From: an uncultured Coriobacteriales bacterium | Lineage (GTDB): Bacteria; Actinomycetota; Coriobacteriia; WRKU01; JAENWW01 | Assembly: GCA_937858655.1 (NCBI GenBank) | Contig: CALLZE010000003.1 | Coordinates: 1-39,802, forward strand | Direction of reading: 5' to 3' | Length of the DNA: 39,802 bases | Part shown: in pieces, positions 6,567 through 18,209 of the stretch | Position numbering within the stretch: position 1 is the first letter of the stretch | How the letters are laid out: every line of letters begins with the position of its first letter | Translations under genes and position numbers: made by a program | The notes under the pieces: generated by a model | Seen by the model: only the letters and a program-made list of their open reading frames with translations | The model's database searches: none | Told to the model about the DNA's origin: nothing

Positions 6567-8078
<1,512 letters not shown>

Positions 8079-8104
<26 letters not shown>

Positions 8105-9383
8105 GAACGCACATGTCTGTGACCCTCAAACGGGTGTGAATGAGATCCTTGATCTCGTCATTCGTGACGGAGTTTTCGCTGAAATCGGTAAAAATCTTTC
8201 GATTCCAAAAGGCGTAGAGATTGACTGCCAAGAGAAAATCGTTATCCCAGGAATCGTTGATATGCACGGTCATCTTCGCGAGCCTGGTTTTGAGTACAAG
8301 GAGACTATCGCTTCGGGCGCGAAATCGGCGCTTATGGGTGGCTACACCGATATTTGCTGTATGCCTAATACCGATCCTGTTGCCGATAACGCTTCGGTTA
8401 TTGAATACATCGTCAAACGCGCTCAGGAGCAGAGTTTCTGCCGCGTGCACCCCTTCGGTGCGATTACCCAAGAGCTCGCTGGCAAGAAGTTGGCCGAACT
8501 GTACGATATGAAACAAGCAGGCGCATGCGCCTTTAGCGATGATGGTCGTGGCATTCAGTCAGCAAAAATGATGCGCGCCGCACTCGACTACGCAAAAATG
8601 TTTGATGTGCTCCTTGTTGCGCATAGTGAGGACGAGACTCTAGCAGGAAACGGTTGCGTAAACGAGGGAATTGCTTCCACGAAGCTCGGACTTCCAGGTC
8701 AACCAGGCGAATCCGAAAGCGTCATGGTTGCGCGCGATATGCACCTTGCACGCCTAACGGGGGGACGCGTTCATGTTGCGCATCTTTCTTCGCGGCACGG
8801 TGTTGACGCGTTGCGCGCCGCAAAGGCTCAAAATCTGCGTGTGAGTGGAGAAGTCACTCCCCATCATCTTTTTCTTAATGAGACGGATCTTGATGATTCC
8901 TATGACACGAATCTCAAGGTAAATCCACCGTTGCGTAGCATCGAGGATCAAGAGGCGCTTATTGCGGCGCTTATCGACGGGACTATTGACGTCGTGGCGA
9001 CGGATAATGCACCTCACGCTTCTCAAGAAAAAGAAGTTGAATTTGAAAATGCTGCGTATGGGTCAATTGGGTATGAAACAGCGCTTCCACTCGTATATAC
9101 GAATCTTGTCAAATCGCAGAGAATGTCTTTGGAACGCTTGGTAGAGGTAATGGCAATAAATCCTCGTACTCTTTTAGGATTGCGCCCGGTAAAAATTGAA
9201 GTTGGATCCCAAGCTGATCTCACTATCTTTGACCCAACAAAGACGAAAACATTTAAAGCGGGCAGTTTTGCCTCTTGCGCTCAAAACAGCGCCTTTATTG
9301 GAAAAAAATTGTATGGCGTTGTCACTGACGTGATTGTCAACGGGTATCATACACTACAAGATGGAAAGGTGATTGCTTCATGA
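8079..9383 (+). CDS. pyrC: Dihydroorotase, class I
   Basis: Third step: reversible cyclisation of carbamoyl-aspartate to dihydroorotate by a zinc amidohydrolase. Numbering from the GTG at 8079 (434 residues), the metal motif is HGHLREPG (H63, H65). Other active-site segments are CMPNTDPV, FSDDGR, AHSED, TPHH and ATDNAPHA. The family usually has TDHAPH, so one His is Asn here while the catalytic Asp and the second His remain. The start is uncertain: GTG at 8079 and GTG at 8088 are both possible, the latter giving an N-terminus (ALLLKNAHV) more like homologues but with a GAGGAA too close. It overlaps pyrB and shares an ATGA with carA. Confidence 0.95.
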
Positions 9384-10615
9384 AAGAAAAGCAACGAGCT
9401 TTTTTGGCGCTAGAAAATGGCGATGTGTATGAGGGATTTGCCTGTGGCGCCCAAGGTGAAGCAACGGGTGAGTTGTGTTTTAACACCTCGCTTTCGGGCT
9501 ACCAAGAGATTCTTTCTGACCCCTCTTATGCTGGTCAGATTATCACGATGACCATGCCACAAATCGGAAATTATGGAACTAATAAATTCGACAATGAGTC
9601 GCGCAGTGTTTTCGCGCGCGGTTTTGTCGTACGCGAAATGTGTTTTGAACCTTCGAACTGGAGAAGCGAGCAATCACTTCCCGAGTATCTCGCTGCACAT
9701 AACGTTGTGGGCATTGAAGGAATCGATACACGGGCACTCGTGCGCACGCTGAGAGAATCGGGCGCCATGAACGCTTGTATTTCCACAGAAGATTGCAATC
9801 ATGAGTCACTCATAGCAAAGGCTAAAGCGGAACCAGGCCTCGTTGGTCAAGACCTTATCTCTACGGTTGCCTACGGCAAGGCGTATGAGTTTGGCGCAAA
9901 TGAACCAAGCGAACTACATTGTTATGACTTTGGCGAACCGACCAAAGAACGTTTCCGCGTCGTCGCGTTTGACTCGGGAATTAAATACAATATTCTTAGA
10001 AATCTTTCGTCGTTGGGCTGTAAGGTGACGGTTGTCGCTCCGAACACCTCAGCGCAAGACATTCTCTCGATGAATCCCGATGGTGTATTTCTGGCAAATG
10101 GTCCAGGAGATCCTGAGCCTTTGGATTACTTATATGAGACGGTTTCAAGTCTTATTGGTCAGGTGCCCATTTTTGGTATTTGCCTTGGCCATCAAATGCT
10201 TTCGCTCGCGGTCGGTGCGAAAACATATAAATTGAAATATGGACATCGCGGAGGAAACCATCCCGTCAAAAATCTCGATACAGGTCGTGTAGAAATTACT
10301 GCGCAGAACCATGGTTTCTGCGTCGATTTCGGCTCAATTGGCCATCTTGACGCAGACTGTGAAAAACGTGGCATTCCTGTTGATGATCTTAAAGGTTGGG
10401 CACGTAGCGGAAGTGCGCCCGTGGTTATTTCAAAAAATCATGGCCCTATAAAATTGACCCATATAAACCTCAACGATAATTCTGTTGAAGGTATTGAACT
10501 GCTTGAGAAGCAAGCTTATTCGGTGCAATATCATCCCGAGGCAGCACCTGGCCCTCATGATGCCCATTATTTGTTCGGTAAATTTATCGACCTTATGGAA
10601 AAGAATCAGTCATAA
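9380..10615 (+). CDS. carA: Carbamoyl-phosphate synthase small (glutaminase) subunit
   Basis: CarA hydrolyses glutamine and passes ammonia to CarB for carbamoyl phosphate synthesis, the first step of the pyrimidine (and arginine) pathway. The 411-residue protein has the N-terminal CarA domain (SGYQEILSDPSYAGQIITMT) and a class I glutamine amidotransferase domain. The nucleophile is C268 in FGICLGHQ and the catalytic pair is H385 and E387 in YHPEAAPGPHDA. It is slightly longer than usual, with a few inserted residues around GHLDADCEKRGIPVDDLKG. Start and pyrC stop overlap as ATGA. It is split from carB by the usp gene. Confidence 0.97.
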   Translation: MKEKQRAFLALENGDVYEGFACGAQGEATGELCFNTSLSGYQEILSDPSYAGQIITMTMPQIGNYGTNKFDNESRSVFARGFVVREMCFEPSNWRSEQSLPEYLAAHNVVGIEGIDTRALVRTLRESGAMNACISTEDCNHESLIAKAKAEPGLVGQDLISTVAYGKAYEFGANEPSELHCYDFGEPTKERFRVVAFDSGIKYNILRNLSSLGCKVTVVAPNTSAQDILSMNPDGVFLANGPGDPEPLDYLYETVSSLIGQVPIFGICLGHQMLSLAVGAKTYKLKYGHRGGNHPVKNLDTGRVEITAQNHGFCVDFGSIGHLDADCEKRGIPVDDLKGWARSGSAPVVISKNHGPIKLTHINLNDNSVEGIELLEKQAYSVQYHPEAAPGPHDAHYLFGKFIDLMEKNQS

Positions 10616-10631: not shown

Positions 10632-11477
10632 ATGAAACGAACTATGCTTATTCCAACAGATTTTGATGATTACACGCCCAAACTCATGGACTTTTGTGCG
10701 GGCACACGCGAGCGGGGGATCGTAAGATGCATCCTCGTTCACGTCGTCGATACTTCTGGTCTTGAGGGACCCGTCATTTCGAAAACGCTTGATGATGCAA
10801 AAAATAAACTCAACATTTTGGCAGAGCCCATTCGCCAAGCAGGTATCGAAACTTCACTGCGCGTTGTCACGGGCAACCCTTCGTATGAGATTCTCAAACT
10901 TGTTCGTGCAGAAAATGTTGATGTTGTGGTGGTTGGTACCACGGCCAAATCGAAGTTGGCACGTTTGTTTACGGGCTCGCTTTCAGAAGATATTGCGTTT
11001 GGACAAAAGGCGCCGACACTTATGGTGCGTGATGATTTAATCGTTGACAAAGAAGATGTTGAGCTCTCCTCACTTGAGTGGTCGAAGAAGCTTGTCGTTC
11101 CTGTTGATTATTCTGCAGCCTCAGCGCGCGCAGTTTTGCAATGCACGCGTTTCGAGCCCGAATCGGTGGGGGAGGTTCGCCTTCTCAATGTGATTGAAGA
11201 ACTCCCTAAGGGACAAGATTTGAAGTCTGCCGTCTCTGAGCAAGAGTTTAGGCTCTCTGCTTTTTGCAAGATGCTTGAGGACGTGGGAATAAATGCAGTT
11301 CCTGTTGTGCGTCAGGGTAAGGTTATTGACGAAATTTTGGACGAAGTTAAAGATTCGAATGCAACCGGCATTGTTATTGGATGCAACTCTAAAACGCTTT
11401 TGAGCGAACTGATTGTTGGTTCAACAACGCAAGAAATTATCCGTGTAGCTCCCGTCTATGTAATGGTGGTGCCCTAA
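10632..11477 (+). CDS. Tandem universal stress protein (two UspA domains)
   Basis: A 281-residue protein of two UspA-fold domains, roughly residues 1-135 ([14 protein letters not shown] to APTLMVRDD) and 150-281 ([15 protein letters not shown] to PVYVMVVP). Usp proteins bind ATP or other nucleotides and often tune metabolism under stress. The ATP loop G-2x-G-9x-G(S/T) is present in altered form in both halves: G-TT-A-9x-GS and G-CN-S-9x-GS, so the second glycine is lost each time. AAGGAG precedes the ATG at 10632; the longer frame from 10485 overlaps carA and is rejected. Its place between carA and carB implies the same PyrR control and a link to pyrimidine status, but the role is unknown. 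Confidence 0.9.
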
Positions 11478-11482
11478 CATTT

Positions 11483-14400
11483 ATGCCTAAAAGATTAGAT
11501 ATAAAAAAGATTCTTGTTATTGGTTCAGGACCAATCGTCATTGGTCAGGCCTGTGAGTTTGATTATTCGGGCGCGCAAGCATGTAAGGTTTTGAAAGAGG
11601 ATGGCTATGAAGTCATCCTCATCAATTCAAATCCCGCGACGATTATGACGGACCCAGGTCTTGCTTCGAAAACGTACATTGAACCCATTACTCCTGAATT
11701 CGTGGAAAAAATTATCGAGCGTGAGCGCCCCGACGCCTTGCTTCCTACTTTGGGCGGTCAGACGGGTCTCAACTGCGCCATCGAGTGTGCCGAAGCGGGC
11801 ATTCTTGAGAAGTACGGCGTTGAACTTATTGGCGCTGATATTGATGTCATCAAGAAAGGTGAGGATCGTAAGCTGTTTGCTGAGGCTATGGGACGCATTG
11901 GCCTTGAAGTTCCTCGCCATGGTTATGCTTATTCGCTCAAAGATGCGCGAGAGTTTGTTGAAGAGTTGGGCTTTCCGGCGGTAATTCGTCCCTCATTTAC
12001 TATGGGCGGAGCTGGAGGCGGAATTGCCTACAATCATGATGAATTTGTTGACATTGTTGCCCACGGTCTAGCGCTCTCGCCAGTTCATGAAGTGCTTATT
12101 GAAGAAAGCGTAATCGGTTGGAAAGAATTTGAAATGGAGGTCATGCGCGATAAAAACGATAACGCCGTTATTGTTTGCTCCATTGAAAATTTTGACGCAA
12201 TGGGTGTTCATACGGGAGACTCCATTACGGTCGCACCAGCTCAGACGCTCACCGACAAAGAGTATCAAAGAATGCGCGACGCAAGCCTCGCGATTTTGCG
12301 TGAAATTGGTGTTGAAACGGGAGGAAGTAACGTTCAGTTTGCCTTGAATCCCGCGGATGGCCGCATGACAGTTATCGAAATGAACCCCCGCGTTTCTCGC
12401 TCCTCAGCACTTGCGTCGAAAGCAACGGGATTTCCCATTGCAAAAATCGCGGCTAAGTTGGCTGTTGGCTACACGCTTGATGAGATTGATAACGACATAA
12501 CCAAAAAGACGCCTGCTTGTTTTGAGCCTTCGATTGACTACACTGTTGTGAAAGTGCCGCGCTGGGCGTTTGAAAAGTTCCGTGGTACCGACGAAACACT
12601 TACGACGCGTATGAAATCTGTGGGCGAGGTTATGGCCATTGGCCGTACGTTTAATGAGGCGCTCGGTAAGGCGATGCGCTCTCTTGAAAATGGTCGCTTC
12701 GGTTTAGGCTGCGATGGAAAAGACGACTTTGATGAGCATACGTTTGATCAAGGCCTCTCTATTCCCAATGAAAAGAGAATCTTCTTTATCGCAGAAGCAA
12801 TGCGTAGAGGTCGGTCCGTCGAGGAGATTCACACTCTGACAAATATTGATCCCTGGTTTTTGCGCGAAATTGAGAAAATTGTTGCAGCCGAAAAGCGTCT
12901 TGCCGATTGCGAACTCTCTGCTCTCGGACGAGATGAACTTCTGTCAGCAAAAAAGCAGGGCCTCAGCGACGAACAGATAGCATATCTCACTCATAGTGAC
13001 GCTTCCACGGTTCGCAGTGTGCGTAAAGCTTTAGGCGTAACGCCTTCCTTTAAATCTGTGGATACCTGCGCAGCCGAGTTTGAATCTTTCACGCCGTATT
13101 ATTACAAAACCTATGATGAGCAAGATGAGGTTTCACCAGCTACTAAGCCGCGTGTCTTGATTTTGGGAGCTGGTCCTAACCGCATTGGGCAAGGTATTGA
13201 GTTTGACTACTGCTGTGTTCATGCTGCTTACGCGCTCTCTGATAAGGGCTATGAGACGGTTATGGTTAACTGCAACCCCGAAACGGTTTCGACAGACTAC
13301 GACACGTCAGATCGCCTCTACTTTGAACCGCTCACTTACGAAGATGTCATGGATATTGTTGATCGTGAAAAGCCTGAAGGGGTACTCGTGACTTTTGGTG
13401 GCCAAACTCCTTTAAAGTTGGCGCGTGATTTAGAGAATAGCGGCGTTACGATTTTAGGAACAAAGCCTGAAGCAATCGATCTCGCTGAAGACCGCAAGCG
13501 TTTTTCTGCCATTCTCGATGAGCTCGGCATTTTATATCCTGCTGCTGGTACCGCCAATAGCTTTGAAGAAGCCCTTGAGGTAGCTCGCACTATCGGATTT
13601 CCTTTGTTGGTTCGTCCAAGCTATGTGTTGGGCGGAAGAGGCATGGTCATTGCCTATGACGAGAGGTATCTCGAAAAGTACATGGAGGAAGCCACAAAGA
13701 TTTCACCCGATCACCCTGTTTTGCTCGACCGATTCTTAGAAGGCGCTATTGAGGTTGACTTAGATGCGGTTTGTGATGGCACTGACGTCTACATTGGCGG
13801 CGTTATGGAGCACATTGAAGAAGCAGGAATTCACTCGGGAGATTCTGCCTGTTGCATTCCTCCTTATACGCTCGCTCAAGACACCGTTGAGCGCATTAAG
13901 GATCATGCTCACGCTCTGGCGCTTCGCTTGGGAGTTTATGGCCTCATGAACGTACAGTTCGCGGTTAAAGATGCTGCGATATATGTTATCGAGGTTAACC
14001 CCCGTGCAAGCCGCACCATTCCGTTTGTATCAAAAGCAACGGGTGTGCCTCTCGCCAAGATAGCGGCGCGTGTTATGGCGGGAGAAAAGCTCGCTGACAT
14101 GAACTTGCCAAACGATCGTACGCGCACGTTTGAGCGATATTGCGTTAAAGAAGCGGTCATGCCTTTTGGTAGGTTCCCTGGTGCCGACTCAGTGCTCGGT
14201 CCTGAAATGAAGTCAACAGGTGAAGTCATGGGAAGCGGTAAAGATTTCCCCAGTGCGTACGCTAAAAGCCAACTGTCGATTGATTACTCGATGCCTGAAA
14301 AAGGCGCGGCATTTTTATCAGTCTGCGATCGCGATAAGCGCAATATTGTGCATATCGCCCAATCGCTTGCGTATTTGGGCTTTGATATTGTATCGACTTC

Positions 14401-14713
14401 GGGTACTGCAAAGGCTATTGCTGCCGCTGGCATTCCTGTGCGGACTGTTCTCAAAAAACATGAGGGCCGCCCCAATATTGTCGACGAAATAACCAATGGA
14501 AAAATTGACTTGGTAATTAATACGCCCTTTGGCCAAGGCACACGCAGTGACGGTTATCATATCCGCGCCGCAGCTATTCGGCATGGTGTCACCAACGTGA
14601 CAACACTTTCCGCTGCTGAGGCGCTTGTATCAGCAATTGGCGCACGCGCACGAGGAGAGCTTGATGTATGTCCTATCCAAGAGTTCAACGTGCTTGAAGG
14701 AGTCGAGTACTAA
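11483..14713 (+). CDS. carB: Carbamoyl-phosphate synthase large subunit
   Basis: CarB uses two ATP, bicarbonate and ammonia from CarA to make carbamoyl phosphate. At 1076 residues it is full length. Two homologous ATP-grasp halves are visible. The first begins at [20 protein letters not shown] and carries [12 protein letters not shown] and [18 protein letters not shown]. The second begins near residue 555 ([20 protein letters not shown]) and carries [11 protein letters not shown] and [19 protein letters not shown] methylglyoxal-synthase-like allosteric domain forms the C-terminus (from about residue 940), which in homologues binds UMP or IMP. It follows usp by 5 bases without a strong ribosome-binding site, suggesting coupled translation. 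Its stop overlaps the pyrK start (TAATG). Confidence 0.98.
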
Positions 14714-15528
14714 TGTGTCAAACATCTCAACATGAGCACAAGCACGTTGAGAACGTTGAAGTTGTGAGCAACGTTGAGATTGCGCCTAGGGTGTGGATGG
14801 TCGTACTCCGCGCGCCTAAAATGGCCCATCTCTTGAGGGCTGGGCAGTTTGTACACCTTCTCATCGATGAGTATCTTACTCTTCGGCGTCCTTTCAGCGT
14901 TTGCCAAATTCGCCAAGACGAAATATGCATTATGTATGCCGTTGTGGGTAAGGGAACTGAACTTCTTACTCAGAAAAAAACGCATGATGAATCAATGAGT
15001 GTAATCGGCCCCTGCGGAAACTCATGGCCCCATCCGGCCGTAGGTTCAAAAGCGCTTTTAGTGGGAGGCGGACTTGGTGCTGCGCCGCTTGGTATGCTTG
15101 CTCATGAACTTTTCGAGGCAGGCACTGATTTTCATTTTATTCAAGCGGGAAGAACGGACTCTTTGGTTATTGGGCGCGGTTTTCATGAGAGTATAAGGCG
15201 CGATATCGAATTTGCGACGGACGATGGTTCGCTCGGCTTTCATGGCCTTATCACTGAGCCGGTAAAAAATTCACTCCAATCTGGCGAGTATTCAGTCGTC
15301 TATGTCTGTGGTCCTGAAATTATGCAACGCGCGGTTGTTGCTGTGTGTGCAAACTTTCAGGTAGCGACCTATGTTTCACTTGAAAGATTGATGGCTTGTG
15401 GCATTGGCGCATGTCTGTCGTGCAATGTCGCAACAAAACAGGGTCCGCAAAAAGTGTGTGTTGATGGGCCTATTTTCTTGAGCGAAGATTTGGAGTTTGA
15501 TGACGTTGCTCGATCCTCAATCCATTAA
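14713..15528 (+). CDS. pyrK: Dihydroorotate dehydrogenase electron-transfer subunit
   Basis: PyrK passes electrons from the PyrD flavin through a [2Fe-2S] cluster and FAD to NAD+. The 271-residue protein shows the ferredoxin-reductase layout: an FAD-binding motif RRPFSVCQI, a nucleotide-binding LLVGGGLGAAPLG, and a C-terminal cysteine cluster C229, C234, C237 and C249 (in MACGIGACLSCNV and KVCVDGP). Its presence shows that the organism uses the NAD-dependent class 1B enzyme rather than the quinone-linked class 2. It overlaps carB by one base and pyrD by about 29 bases. Confidence 0.96.
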   Translation: MCQTSQHEHKHVENVEVVSNVEIAPRVWMVVLRAPKMAHLLRAGQFVHLLIDEYLTLRRPFSVCQIRQDEICIMYAVVGKGTELLTQKKTHDESMSVIGPCGNSWPHPAVGSKALLVGGGLGAAPLGMLAHELFEAGTDFHFIQAGRTDSLVIGRGFHESIRRDIEFATDDGSLGFHGLITEPVKNSLQSGEYSVVYVCGPEIMQRAVVAVCANFQVATYVSLERLMACGIGACLSCNVATKQGPQKVCVDGPIFLSEDLEFDDVARSSIH

Positions 15529-16441
15529 TACGAGAATTTCTTTCGCGGGTCTGGAGTTATGCAGCCCGCTAACAGTTGCCTCAGGCACCTTTGGTTCAGG
15601 GCGTGAGTATGCCGACTTTGTTGATCTCGCACAGCTTGGTGCGCTTACCACAAAAGGTGTCTCACCTGTAGCGTGGGCGGGTAATGAGGGGGCGCGCATT
15701 ACCGAGGTTTCTTCAGGTATGCTCAATTCCATTGGGCTTCAAAATTCCGGCGTAGACCATTTTATTCATCATGATCTGGCGTGGTTGCAGAGCCATGCTC
15801 CCGAGGCAAAGGTCATTGTCAATGTGTGTGGCCACGAAATTGATGAGTTCGCTCGTGTTATTGAAAAACTTGAAGACCATCATGGTGTTGGTATGTATGA
15901 ACTCAACATTTCTTGTCCCAACGTGGATAACGGCGGTATGTCATTTGGAACGGACCCCAAAGTTGCGGCACAAGTCGTGGAGCGTGTGCGCCCCCTTACT
16001 AAAAAGCCGCTTATCGCAAAATTGACGCCGAATGTGACTGATATTGCTGAAATTGCTCGAAGCGTCGAAGCCGCAGGTGCTGATGGAATTTCACTCATAA
16101 ATACCGTTTTAGGCATGGCGATAGATGCACATCGTTTTAAGCCAATTTTGAAGCGCAAAGTGGGTGGACTTTCGGGACCCGCTATCAAGCCAATTGCCTT
16201 ACGTATGGTTCATGAGGTTTCTCGTGCAGTGTCTGTTCCTTTGATTGGCCTTGGCGGAGCAACGACGGGCATCGATGTCGTGGAGTTTATGCTTGCTGGC
16301 GCGACGATGGTCGCCCTTGGTACGGCGAACTTTAAAGATCCCTTCGCGACAGATAAAGCGTTGATTGAACTCAAAGAATTTTGCGCCCTGCATGATATTG
16401 AAAATGTATCAGACCTAGTCGGCGCGCTTAAAGAGATATAA
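15500..16441 (+). CDS. pyrD: Dihydroorotate dehydrogenase, class 1B catalytic subunit
   Basis: Fourth step of UMP synthesis: dihydroorotate to orotate, with FMN as cofactor. The TIM-barrel protein has 313 residues. The catalytic base is C139 in NISCPNVDNGG, diagnostic of class 1 enzymes. Also visible are ASGTFGSGREY near the N-terminus and the FMN phosphate-binding GLGGATTG and GTANF near the C-terminus. The ATG at 15500 is preferred over TTG at 15497; GGAG at 15492-15495 lies just upstream, within pyrK. The 29-base overlap with pyrK fits equal production of the two subunits of the complex. Confidence 0.96.
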   Translation: MTLLDPQSINTRISFAGLELCSPLTVASGTFGSGREYADFVDLAQLGALTTKGVSPVAWAGNEGARITEVSSGMLNSIGLQNSGVDHFIHHDLAWLQSHAPEAKVIVNVCGHEIDEFARVIEKLEDHHGVGMYELNISCPNVDNGGMSFGTDPKVAAQVVERVRPLTKKPLIAKLTPNVTDIAEIARSVEAAGADGISLINTVLGMAIDAHRFKPILKRKVGGLSGPAIKPIALRMVHEVSRAVSVPLIGLGGATTGIDVVEFMLAGATMVALGTANFKDPFATDKALIELKEFCALHDIENVSDLVGALKEI

Positions 16442-16443
16442 CA

Positions 16444-17190
16444 GTGAGAGGTATAACTTTGAAACAGTATGATCCTAAGGATAATTTGATTGTTGCGCTT
16501 GATGGGTCAACACAAGATTTGCTTTGGTGGGCACGTGAACTCAAGGGTACGGTTTCTTGGGTCAAAATTGGAATGACGAATTTTTATGCCGAAGGCCCGC
16601 AACTCGTGCGTCAGGTGCAAGAGTATGGCTATAAAATATTTCTCGATTTAAAGTTACATGACATTCCTCATCAGGTCAGAGGGGCCGCCTTCCAACTTGC
16701 GCAACTAGGCGTCGATATGGTCACTATTCATGCAAGCGGCGGATCTGACATGATTGCCGCGGCACGCGAGGGGCTCGATGAGGGAGCTAAACTGGCGCAT
16801 AAGTCTGCTCCCAAACTTCTTGCAGTGACCGTGCTTACGTCACTCGACGATAATGCGCTTCATGCACTTGGTATTGAGAGTTCTTCAGGTGAACACGTGA
16901 AACGATTGGCCCAACTTGCCTATGCGGCGGGGGCGGATGGCGTTGTGTGTTCTCCGCTGGAGTCTGCGTTGGTTCGCGAAACGCTCGGTGATGATGCCTT
17001 GATTGTGACACCGGGCGTGCGTCCTCAGTGGGCTGCGGCAAACGACCAAATGCGCATTACGACACCATCTCAAGCGCTGAAAAACGGCTCAACCCATCTC
17101 GTTATCGGAAGGCCCATTACCGCGGCCAATGATAAGGCTCAGGCAATATTGGACATTCTTGAAGAAATGAAAGAGGCGTGTAATGAATAA
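16444..17190 (+). CDS. pyrF: Orotidine-5'-phosphate decarboxylase
   Basis: Final step: OMP to UMP, by a cofactor-free TIM-barrel enzyme. The catalytic D-x-K-xx-D motif is FLDLKLHDIP (D68, K70, D73 counting from the GTG at 16444). The upstream Lys lies in WVKIGMTNF and the phosphate-binding end is VIGRPITAAND. The 248-residue length is normal for the bacterial type I family. A TTG start at 16459, 7 bases after GAGAGG (16446-16451), is an equally good choice and would give 243 residues. The gene follows pyrD by 2 bases and overlaps pyrE by 8 bases. Confidence 0.95.
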   Translation: MRGITLKQYDPKDNLIVALDGSTQDLLWWARELKGTVSWVKIGMTNFYAEGPQLVRQVQEYGYKIFLDLKLHDIPHQVRGAAFQLAQLGVDMVTIHASGGSDMIAAAREGLDEGAKLAHKSAPKLLAVTVLTSLDDNALHALGIESSSGEHVKRLAQLAYAAGADGVVCSPLESALVRETLGDDALIVTPGVRPQWAAANDQMRITTPSQALKNGSTHLVIGRPITAANDKAQAILDILEEMKEACNE

Positions 17191-17761
17191 CGAAGAAATA
17201 ATGGATGTCTTACTGAAACGACATGCGGTTTTAAAAGGTCATTTTCAATTAACAAGCGGACGACACAGTGATACCTACTGTCAGTGCGCTCGTTTATGCG
17301 AGTACCCGAAAGACACCAATCTTCTTGCAGGAGAAGCAGTCCAGCGCTTACCCCAAGATATTGAAATTGATGGCGTGATTGCTCCAGCTGTCGGCGGGTT
17401 GGTGTTTGGCTATGCGATAGCCTCAGCTCTCGATAAGCGCTTCATTTTCGCTGAGCGCGTTAACGGTGCAATGACGCTTCGGCGTGCGTTTGAAATTATG
17501 CCCGGAGAGAAATTTCTCGTTGCTGAAGATGTAGTGACAACAGGGGGAAGTGTTCAAGAGGTCATCGAAGTTGTTGAAGCCGCCGGGGGAAGTGTCGAGG
17601 GTATCGTGTCATTGATTGACCGTGGGGGAGATAAGAAGTTCTCAAAGCCGTTTTATCCCTTGCTCGCCCTTGATATTAAATCATGGGAAGCAAGCGAGTG
17701 TTCGCTCTGCGAAGAGGGCGTTGAACTTTACTCGCCTGGTTCGCGCAGGATTGCTCAATAG
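17183..17761 (+). CDS. pyrE: Orotate phosphoribosyltransferase
   Basis: Fifth step: orotate plus PRPP gives OMP. The 192-residue protein has the PRPP-binding motif VAEDVVTTGGSV at residues 113-124, the PAVGGLVFGYAIA segment and the FAERVNGAMTLRR segment of the short PyrE family. It carries cysteines near both ends (CQCARLC and CSLCEEG), as in thermophilic and actinobacterial PyrE types. It is the last gene of the pyr operon. No terminator separates it from rpsO; the rpsO promoter begins immediately at the stop codon. Confidence 0.96.
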   Translation: MNNEEIMDVLLKRHAVLKGHFQLTSGRHSDTYCQCARLCEYPKDTNLLAGEAVQRLPQDIEIDGVIAPAVGGLVFGYAIASALDKRFIFAERVNGAMTLRRAFEIMPGEKFLVAEDVVTTGGSVQEVIEVVEAAGGSVEGIVSLIDRGGDKKFSKPFYPLLALDIKSWEASECSLCEEGVELYSPGSRRIAQ

Positions 17762-18181: not shown

Positions 18182-18209
18182 AAAGGGATGGCTCAGCCAT
18201 CCCTTTTTT
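18182..18209 (+). terminator. Intrinsic terminator after rpsO
   Basis: A perfect stem GGGATGGC (18185-18192) with GCCATCCC (18196-18203), extended by AAA/TTT, loop TCA, then TTTTTT (18204-18209). It ends both rpsO transcripts and any read-through from the pyr operon. Confidence 0.93.

Follow-up and report, generated by a model that had tools for sequence, protein, structure and literature searches.

A tandem universal stress protein gene held between carA and carB in Coriobacteriia, and its possible role in carbamoyl phosphate synthesis

The pyr operon and its usp gene

The window, a stretch of 39,802 nucleotides from an uncultured Coriobacteriales bacterium, carries a pyrimidine gene cluster on one strand in the order pyrR-pyrB-pyrC-carA-usp-carB-pyrK-pyrD-pyrF-pyrE. 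Its features are as follows:

6588..7175, + strand: pyrR, pyr operon regulator (domain match)
7169..8104, + strand: pyrB, aspartate carbamoyltransferase (aspartate/ornithine carbamoyltransferase domains; "aspartate" from operon position)
8079..9383, + strand: pyrC, dihydroorotase (domain match)
9380..10615, + strand: carA, carbamoyl-phosphate synthase small subunit, full length (NCBIfam TIGR01368; GICLGHQ and HPE present)
10632..11477, + strand: usp, two-domain (tandem) universal stress protein, 281 aa (open reading frame, PF00582; predicted model, best match 3loq)
10638..11030, + strand: Usp domain 1, loop G102-TT-A105-9x-GS, Asp10 (single-domain PF00582 match)
11085..11474, + strand: Usp domain 2, loop G250-CN-S253-9x-GS, Asp159 (single-domain PF00582 match)
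11483..14713, + strand: carB, carbamoyl-phosphate synthase large subunit with MGS domain (NCBIfam TIGR01369)
14713..15528, + strand: pyrK, dihydroorotate dehydrogenase B Fe-S subunit (domain match)
15497..16441, + strand: pyrD, dihydroorotate dehydrogenase (domain match)
16444..17190, + strand: pyrF, OMP decarboxylase (domain match)
17183..17761, + strand: pyrE, phosphoribosyltransferase (domain match; "orotate" from operon position)
18182..18206, + strand: terminator-like hairpin of 11 pairs with a T-rich tail, 3' of the operon (consensus match only)

The usp reading frame begins with ATG, has AAAGGAG upstream of its start codon, and is separated by 16 nt from the carA stop and by 5 nt from the carB ATG. 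Its whole product matches PF00582 over two stretches (124.7 bits, E 5.3e-36), and the single domains score 65.9 and 62.3 bits against a cut-off of 24. The presence of a two-domain universal stress protein (Usp) between carA and carB on the same strand, as described in the initial annotation, is thereby confirmed, and its domains together with its predicted fold indicate a tandem-type member of the universal stress protein family (PF00582). In the source genome (1.39 Mb, 225 contigs), one other Usp match has been detected, which is partial and near a contig end.

Both carA and carB of the window encode ordinary, full-length members of glutamine-dependent CarAB, and GICLGHQ and HPE of the window CarA are taken here to be the catalytic glutaminase motifs. 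The accessible part of the enzyme's description (PMC6022934) includes no Usp gene between carA and carB, whereas the window has one. The window holds 20 terminator-like sites, compared with 15.1 (sd 3.7) in shuffled sequences, the strongest being the one at 18182-18206; a weak site lies within usp (10944-10960). A search for RNA leaders returned no Rfam match in the window at gathering thresholds.

Conservation of the carA-usp-carB order

A first search of 59 genomes, including the window's own, gave a Usp match in 33. Across 28 loci (L005-L032), usp adjoins carA and/or carB in all 28 and both genes in 27, with the remaining locus (L006), at a contig end, having only carA beside usp. A weaker match (L033, in G036) has no pyr gene around it. 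A separate related-locus search with the window Usp as query gave no match. A profile of 19 orthologs (A1) was then run against 396 genomes of the class, with 67 reaching the threshold of E 1e-20, of which 65 are car-type; G036 and G146 have only weaker Usp matches, without pyr neighbours.

When loci were read directly, usp was found to be flanked by both carA and carB in 59 of the 65 car-type genomes. The other six have one car neighbour (carA in G012, G084, G096, G116 and G140; carB in G136), and in these the contig ends on the opposite flank, within usp or at it. Coordinates alone, among the matches listed, gave both neighbours in 47 of the 65, carA only in 10, carB only in 2 and no resolved neighbour in 6. 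Since every one of the 65 car-type genes adjoins carA and/or carB, the arrangement goes beyond chance. Car-type usp spans 18 family codes of the class (f1-f3, f5, f8-f16 and f18-f22), is retained in some genomes of only 1.1-1.5 Mb as assembled, and sits within a broader pyrR-B-C-carA-usp-carB-K-D order that is kept wherever contigs extend far enough. Spacing is tight in the gene-modelled loci of both classes discussed here, some of which are near-copies: carA and usp lie a median of 3 nt apart (50 nt or less in 48 of 49 loci), and usp and carB a median of 17.5 nt apart (50 nt or less in 43 of 50). Fusions of usp to carA or carB sharing a stop codon were absent from these loci.

Two irregular copies have been observed. 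In G122 (L204) usp reads as two pieces, while in G048 (L206) a short usp lies beside unresolved bases; either may reflect decay or assembly error.

A second class and the origin of the gene

Beyond the class, 296 sampled genomes of the phylum included 5 with the carA-usp-carB order. Within the class to which these 5 belong, a second class of the phylum, it was found in 9 of 36 genomes (G542, G657, G671, G648, G609, G619, G669, G668 and G672), which belong to family codes f74, f87, f88, f93 and f97. Taken with the 65 of 396 genomes of the first class, this survey of relatives, which the initial annotation had proposed as a check, speaks against chance insertion. Other Usp loci of the second class (L188-L190) show no pyr gene.

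In the Usp tree, 45 car-type Usps of the first class form one clade (SH-aLRT 99). The five from the second class fall with paralogs when the tree is left free, and a topology placing all 50 together is unrejected (p-AU 0.163). A single origin of the car-type Usps of both classes is thus likely, though not proven.

Loss, divergence and selection

In a tree of 70 CarB rows, 48 of them from loci with usp, the usp trait requires at least nine changes, compared with a mean of 18.9 when it is shuffled. The tree is rooted on the second class, which is an assumption, and parsimony does not separate gain from loss; the simplest reading is ancestral presence followed by about nine losses. One inferred loss covers the group of f4, f6, f7, f23, f25, f26 and f28, and the others fall inside f2, f3, f5, f8, f9, f10 and f12. 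Loss leaves an ordinary carA-carB junction, as seen in G070 when compared with G026, which has the same genus code and carries usp. Among the matches listed, adjacent carA and carB without usp also occur in G028, G036, G060, G074, G098, G112, G142 and G005, as well as in G004. Having been lost about nine times, usp is dispensable, and because these losses leave an ordinary junction, CarAB does not need it. A subunit of the synthase would be expected in every genome of the clade that encodes the enzyme, and the Usp is absent from some of these.

The gene is under purifying selection. Its dN/dS ranges from 0.048 to 0.305 in the 13 of 15 pairs that were computable, with one value (0.068) at a dS of 2.2, and is of the same order as that of pyrC and carA in those pairs; the pair formed by the window and G001 is saturated. 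Conserved order and dN/dS together rule out chance insertion or an assembly artefact. They also bear on the idea of a neutral passenger, inserted once and simply never removed, as might be supposed from the dispensability and fast evolution of usp and from the G122 and G048 copies, which are broken or short, possibly through assembly error. The dN/dS values in all 13 computable pairs largely refute this reading, and the 65 class genomes that have retained usp, some of them small, also count against it, making it highly improbable.

Sequence divergence is nonetheless much faster in usp than in carB: in families from beyond the window's order, identity to the window is about 30-36% for usp and 76-82% for carB. 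Faster evolution of CarA or CarB following usp loss was considered and rejected, with no consistent rate change in seven trios.

The main rival to a regulatory role is co-expression only, whereby a general tandem Usp would work elsewhere and its level would follow growth or pyrimidine demand without contact with CarAB; this is regarded as a serious possibility, though one falling well short of probable. The usual description of Usps as general stress proteins fits this explanation, as do the repeated loss, the fast divergence and the lack of a coupled CarA/CarB rate change. Related two-domain Usps have also been observed directly after a nuoN-like gene (L120:4992-6781 in G412, two in a row; L123:2012-2911 in G397; the names of the nuoN-like gene and the complex I operon having been assigned by eye), pointing to core operons as sites where Usp genes settle. 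A merely co-expressed gene would, however, be free to sit anywhere in the operon, whereas usp has long been retained at one exact site, across 18 family codes of the first class and 5 of the second, at a median of 3 nt from carA.

Predicted structure and known tandem Usps

An AlphaFold2 model of the window Usp, built with 47 orthologs, has a mean pLDDT of 88.4 and a pTM of 0.87, with pLDDT below 50 in the nucleotide-loop segments 106-114 and 255-262. In a structure comparison, the top 12 rows by Z were all Usp structures matched over the whole model, and the nearest solved structures are the tandem Usps 3loq, 3ab7/3ab8, 3cis and UspE. The closest, 3loq (AF1760 from Archaeoglobus fulgidus), has two Usp domains in one chain, as does the window protein (Z 27.1, rmsd 2.7 A, 258 aligned residues, 23% identity), and is matched by the ortholog profile at E 1.7e-43. 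The accessible part of a 2013 survey (PMC3673472) lists this structure with AMP and shows the second Gly in its domain 2 loop; the window protein has Ser at this position. TTHA0350 of Thermus thermophilus (3ab7/3ab8) is likewise a tandem Usp (Z 22.9-23.4, 20% identity), and the title of structure 3ab8 describes it as complexed with ATPs. As a side observation, the model further resembles, at Z 13-15, the regulatory domains at the C-terminus of cation-chloride cotransporters.

Precedents for Usps with dedicated partners are also found among related proteins. Rv2623 of Mycobacterium tuberculosis, a tandem Usp like that of the window (Z 23.1, 17% identity), binds ATP and has Rv1747 as the partner protein on which it acts, as stated in the accessible part of PMC5549992. 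Unlike the partner proposed here, Rv1747 is a putative ABC transporter, and contact is made through a phosphothreonine-FHA link. In Halomonas elongata, the teaD gene is part of the tea operon. Its product, TeaD, is a Usp that may regulate the ectoine transporter TeaABC, according to the same portion of that source (PMC5549992), and constitutes the closest precedent for a Usp acting on the product of its own operon. It differs from the window Usp in having a single domain and in that its target is a transporter rather than a biosynthetic enzyme. The window usp shares one gene cluster with its presumed partner, as would be expected of an operon-partner Usp of the TeaD/Rv2623 type.

Nucleotide loops

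In the window protein, loop 1 reads G102-TT-A105-9x-G115-S116 and loop 2 reads G250-CN-S253-9x-G263-S264, with the first Gly, the final Gly-Ser and the Asp present in both domains. The G-2x-G-9x-G(S/T) motif of the ATP-binding Usp subgroup is therefore absent from both, owing to Ala105 and Ser253. The initial annotation was thus correct in describing both loops as altered at the second Gly, and had taken these parallel changes as a sign of altered ligand preference. This interpretation has been weakened by comparison across 47 aligned orthologs, where the second Gly is kept by 26 in domain 1 (with Ala in 20 and Arg in 1) and by 42 in domain 2 (with Ser in 2, Asp in 2 and Ala in 1). Ser in loop 2 is limited to the window and G001, both of family f1, in which the second Gly is absent from both loops; Ala in loop 1 is a wider trait. 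Asp159 is invariant in all 47. The five aligned orthologs of the second class have the second Gly in both loops, and four of them show the full G-2x-G-9x-G(S/T) in both domains (alignment A3), the sequence from L119 having Cys at the first Gly of loop 1.

The loop argument is weak because most orthologs keep the second Gly and because, in the accessible part of the 2013 survey, that residue is present in only 50% of 26 Usp structures (PMC3673472). The same portion reports that AF0826, with Lys at this position, binds dAMP, and that TTHA0350 binds two ATP despite one degenerate domain (PMC3673472). Since some Usps are reported to bind nucleotide without the second Gly, the Ala and Ser of the window protein are in themselves no proof of a lost or changed ligand, and the unmet motif does not exclude ATP binding.

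A putative role in carbamoyl phosphate synthesis

Usps are widespread, and few have a known molecular target. A Usp long held between the subunit genes of a well-understood enzyme therefore offers a concrete candidate target, which is testable with purified proteins, and sister genomes with and without usp, such as G026 and G070, provide natural controls. As distant relatives keep the gene order, the protein probably serves carbamoyl-phosphate synthase or the pyr pathway. The retained position, the tight spacing and purifying selection together speak for a function connected with CarAB or the pathway. Of what the initial annotation had envisaged, the link to CarAB or the pyr operon stands as the best reading of the protein's role, given that the arrangement is real, conserved and under selection, while the parallel loop changes as a sign of altered ligand do not. 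Usps with specific partners are known, namely Rv2623 with Rv1747 and probably TeaD with TeaABC, in the accessible part of PMC5549992.

Distance correlations hint at carA and carB without being specific. In partial correlations, which remove what other pyr genes explain and whose permutations ignore relatedness, usp correlates best with carA across 28 rows (0.349; 1 of 2000 permutations as high), closely followed by pyrR (0.329). Across the 25 rows of the first class, it correlates best with carB (0.296) and carA (0.293), with pyrB close behind (0.264). These values are suggestive only. Repeated loss, no coupled rate change, no fusion and fast divergence all count against a tight partnership with CarAB.

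Taking these observations into account, the preferred reading, to which a probability of roughly 0.45 is assigned, is that the Usp responds to nucleotide and acts as an accessory regulator, either of carbamoyl-phosphate synthase or of the pyr pathway. Under such a model, usp would have long formed part of the carAB unit in two classes, passed down vertically as its third gene, and would encode two alpha/beta domains of nucleotide-binding type per chain; in the majority of relatives, the loops of these domains retain most of the ATP-binding signature. Produced in step with CarA and CarB, the protein would bind an adenine nucleotide or, less likely, a uridine nucleotide; one nucleotide-bound state might then contact the CarB/CarA core, and this contact could adjust flux, in either direction, as energy or growth changes. 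Either CarB or the CPSase domain of CarA would be a likelier target than glutamine hydrolysis. Five genomes (G002, G003, G010, G011 and G013) keep usp beside a CarA without the glutaminase Cys region (about 170 aa in G002 and 258-263 aa in the others), which makes glutamine hydrolysis an unlikely target.

A stronger version of this proposal is rated as less likely than not, namely that the Usp is a third regulatory component of the synthase, reading adenylate or uridylate and acting on the core formed by CarB and the CPSase domain, ancient in two classes and lost in the group that includes the gut families. If it is true that the Usp regulates CarAB, an energy or stress input would be added to a textbook allosteric enzyme. 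The position of usp between the subunit genes, with short gaps, could also be explained by a scaffold or assembly factor that binds new CarA and CarB and balances or stabilises the heterodimer under stress, with nucleotide serving only as a conformational switch. Framework residues remain conserved while the loops drift in some lineages, which would fit such a factor, but sister genomes have an ordinary carA-carB without usp, and this alternative is considered improbable.

A search of titles and abstract openings in the open-licence literature found no description of carA-usp-carB, and the main text of PMC9686372, on Anaerosomatales, has no mention of stress, carA or pyrimidine.

CarA proteins lacking the glutaminase region

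CarA proteins without a working-looking glutaminase have been observed at L086 (G002), L087 (G003), L088 (G013), L008 (G010) and L010 (G011), and further at L148 (G004), L160 (G006), L161 (G180), L162 (G257) and L163 (G311); those of G344, G356 and G391 also lack it, as judged on match extent only. Two forms occur, one consisting of the CPSase domain alone (143-205 aa in gene models) and the other internally deleted, 258-263 aa long and without the Cys region. Their occurrence in family codes f2, f3, f4, f6 and f27 suggests that ammonia-dependent carbamoyl-phosphate synthases may have arisen more than once. No description of these truncated CarA proteins was found in the open-licence literature searched. 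In L149 (G007), carB comes next after pyrC, no carA being detected between them, and none was found in that genome at E 1e-10 among the matches listed.

Two further irregularities concern individual gene models. An apparent inserted domain in the 1331-aa CarB of L143 (G074) proved to be an internal repeat of CarB itself, and this long protein is probably an assembly artefact. In the window, outside the pyr operon, positions 993-2311 hold a 213-aa reading frame with a poly(A)/CCA polymerase head domain, directly followed by a second frame of 224 aa, so that the polymerase may be split into two genes or interrupted.
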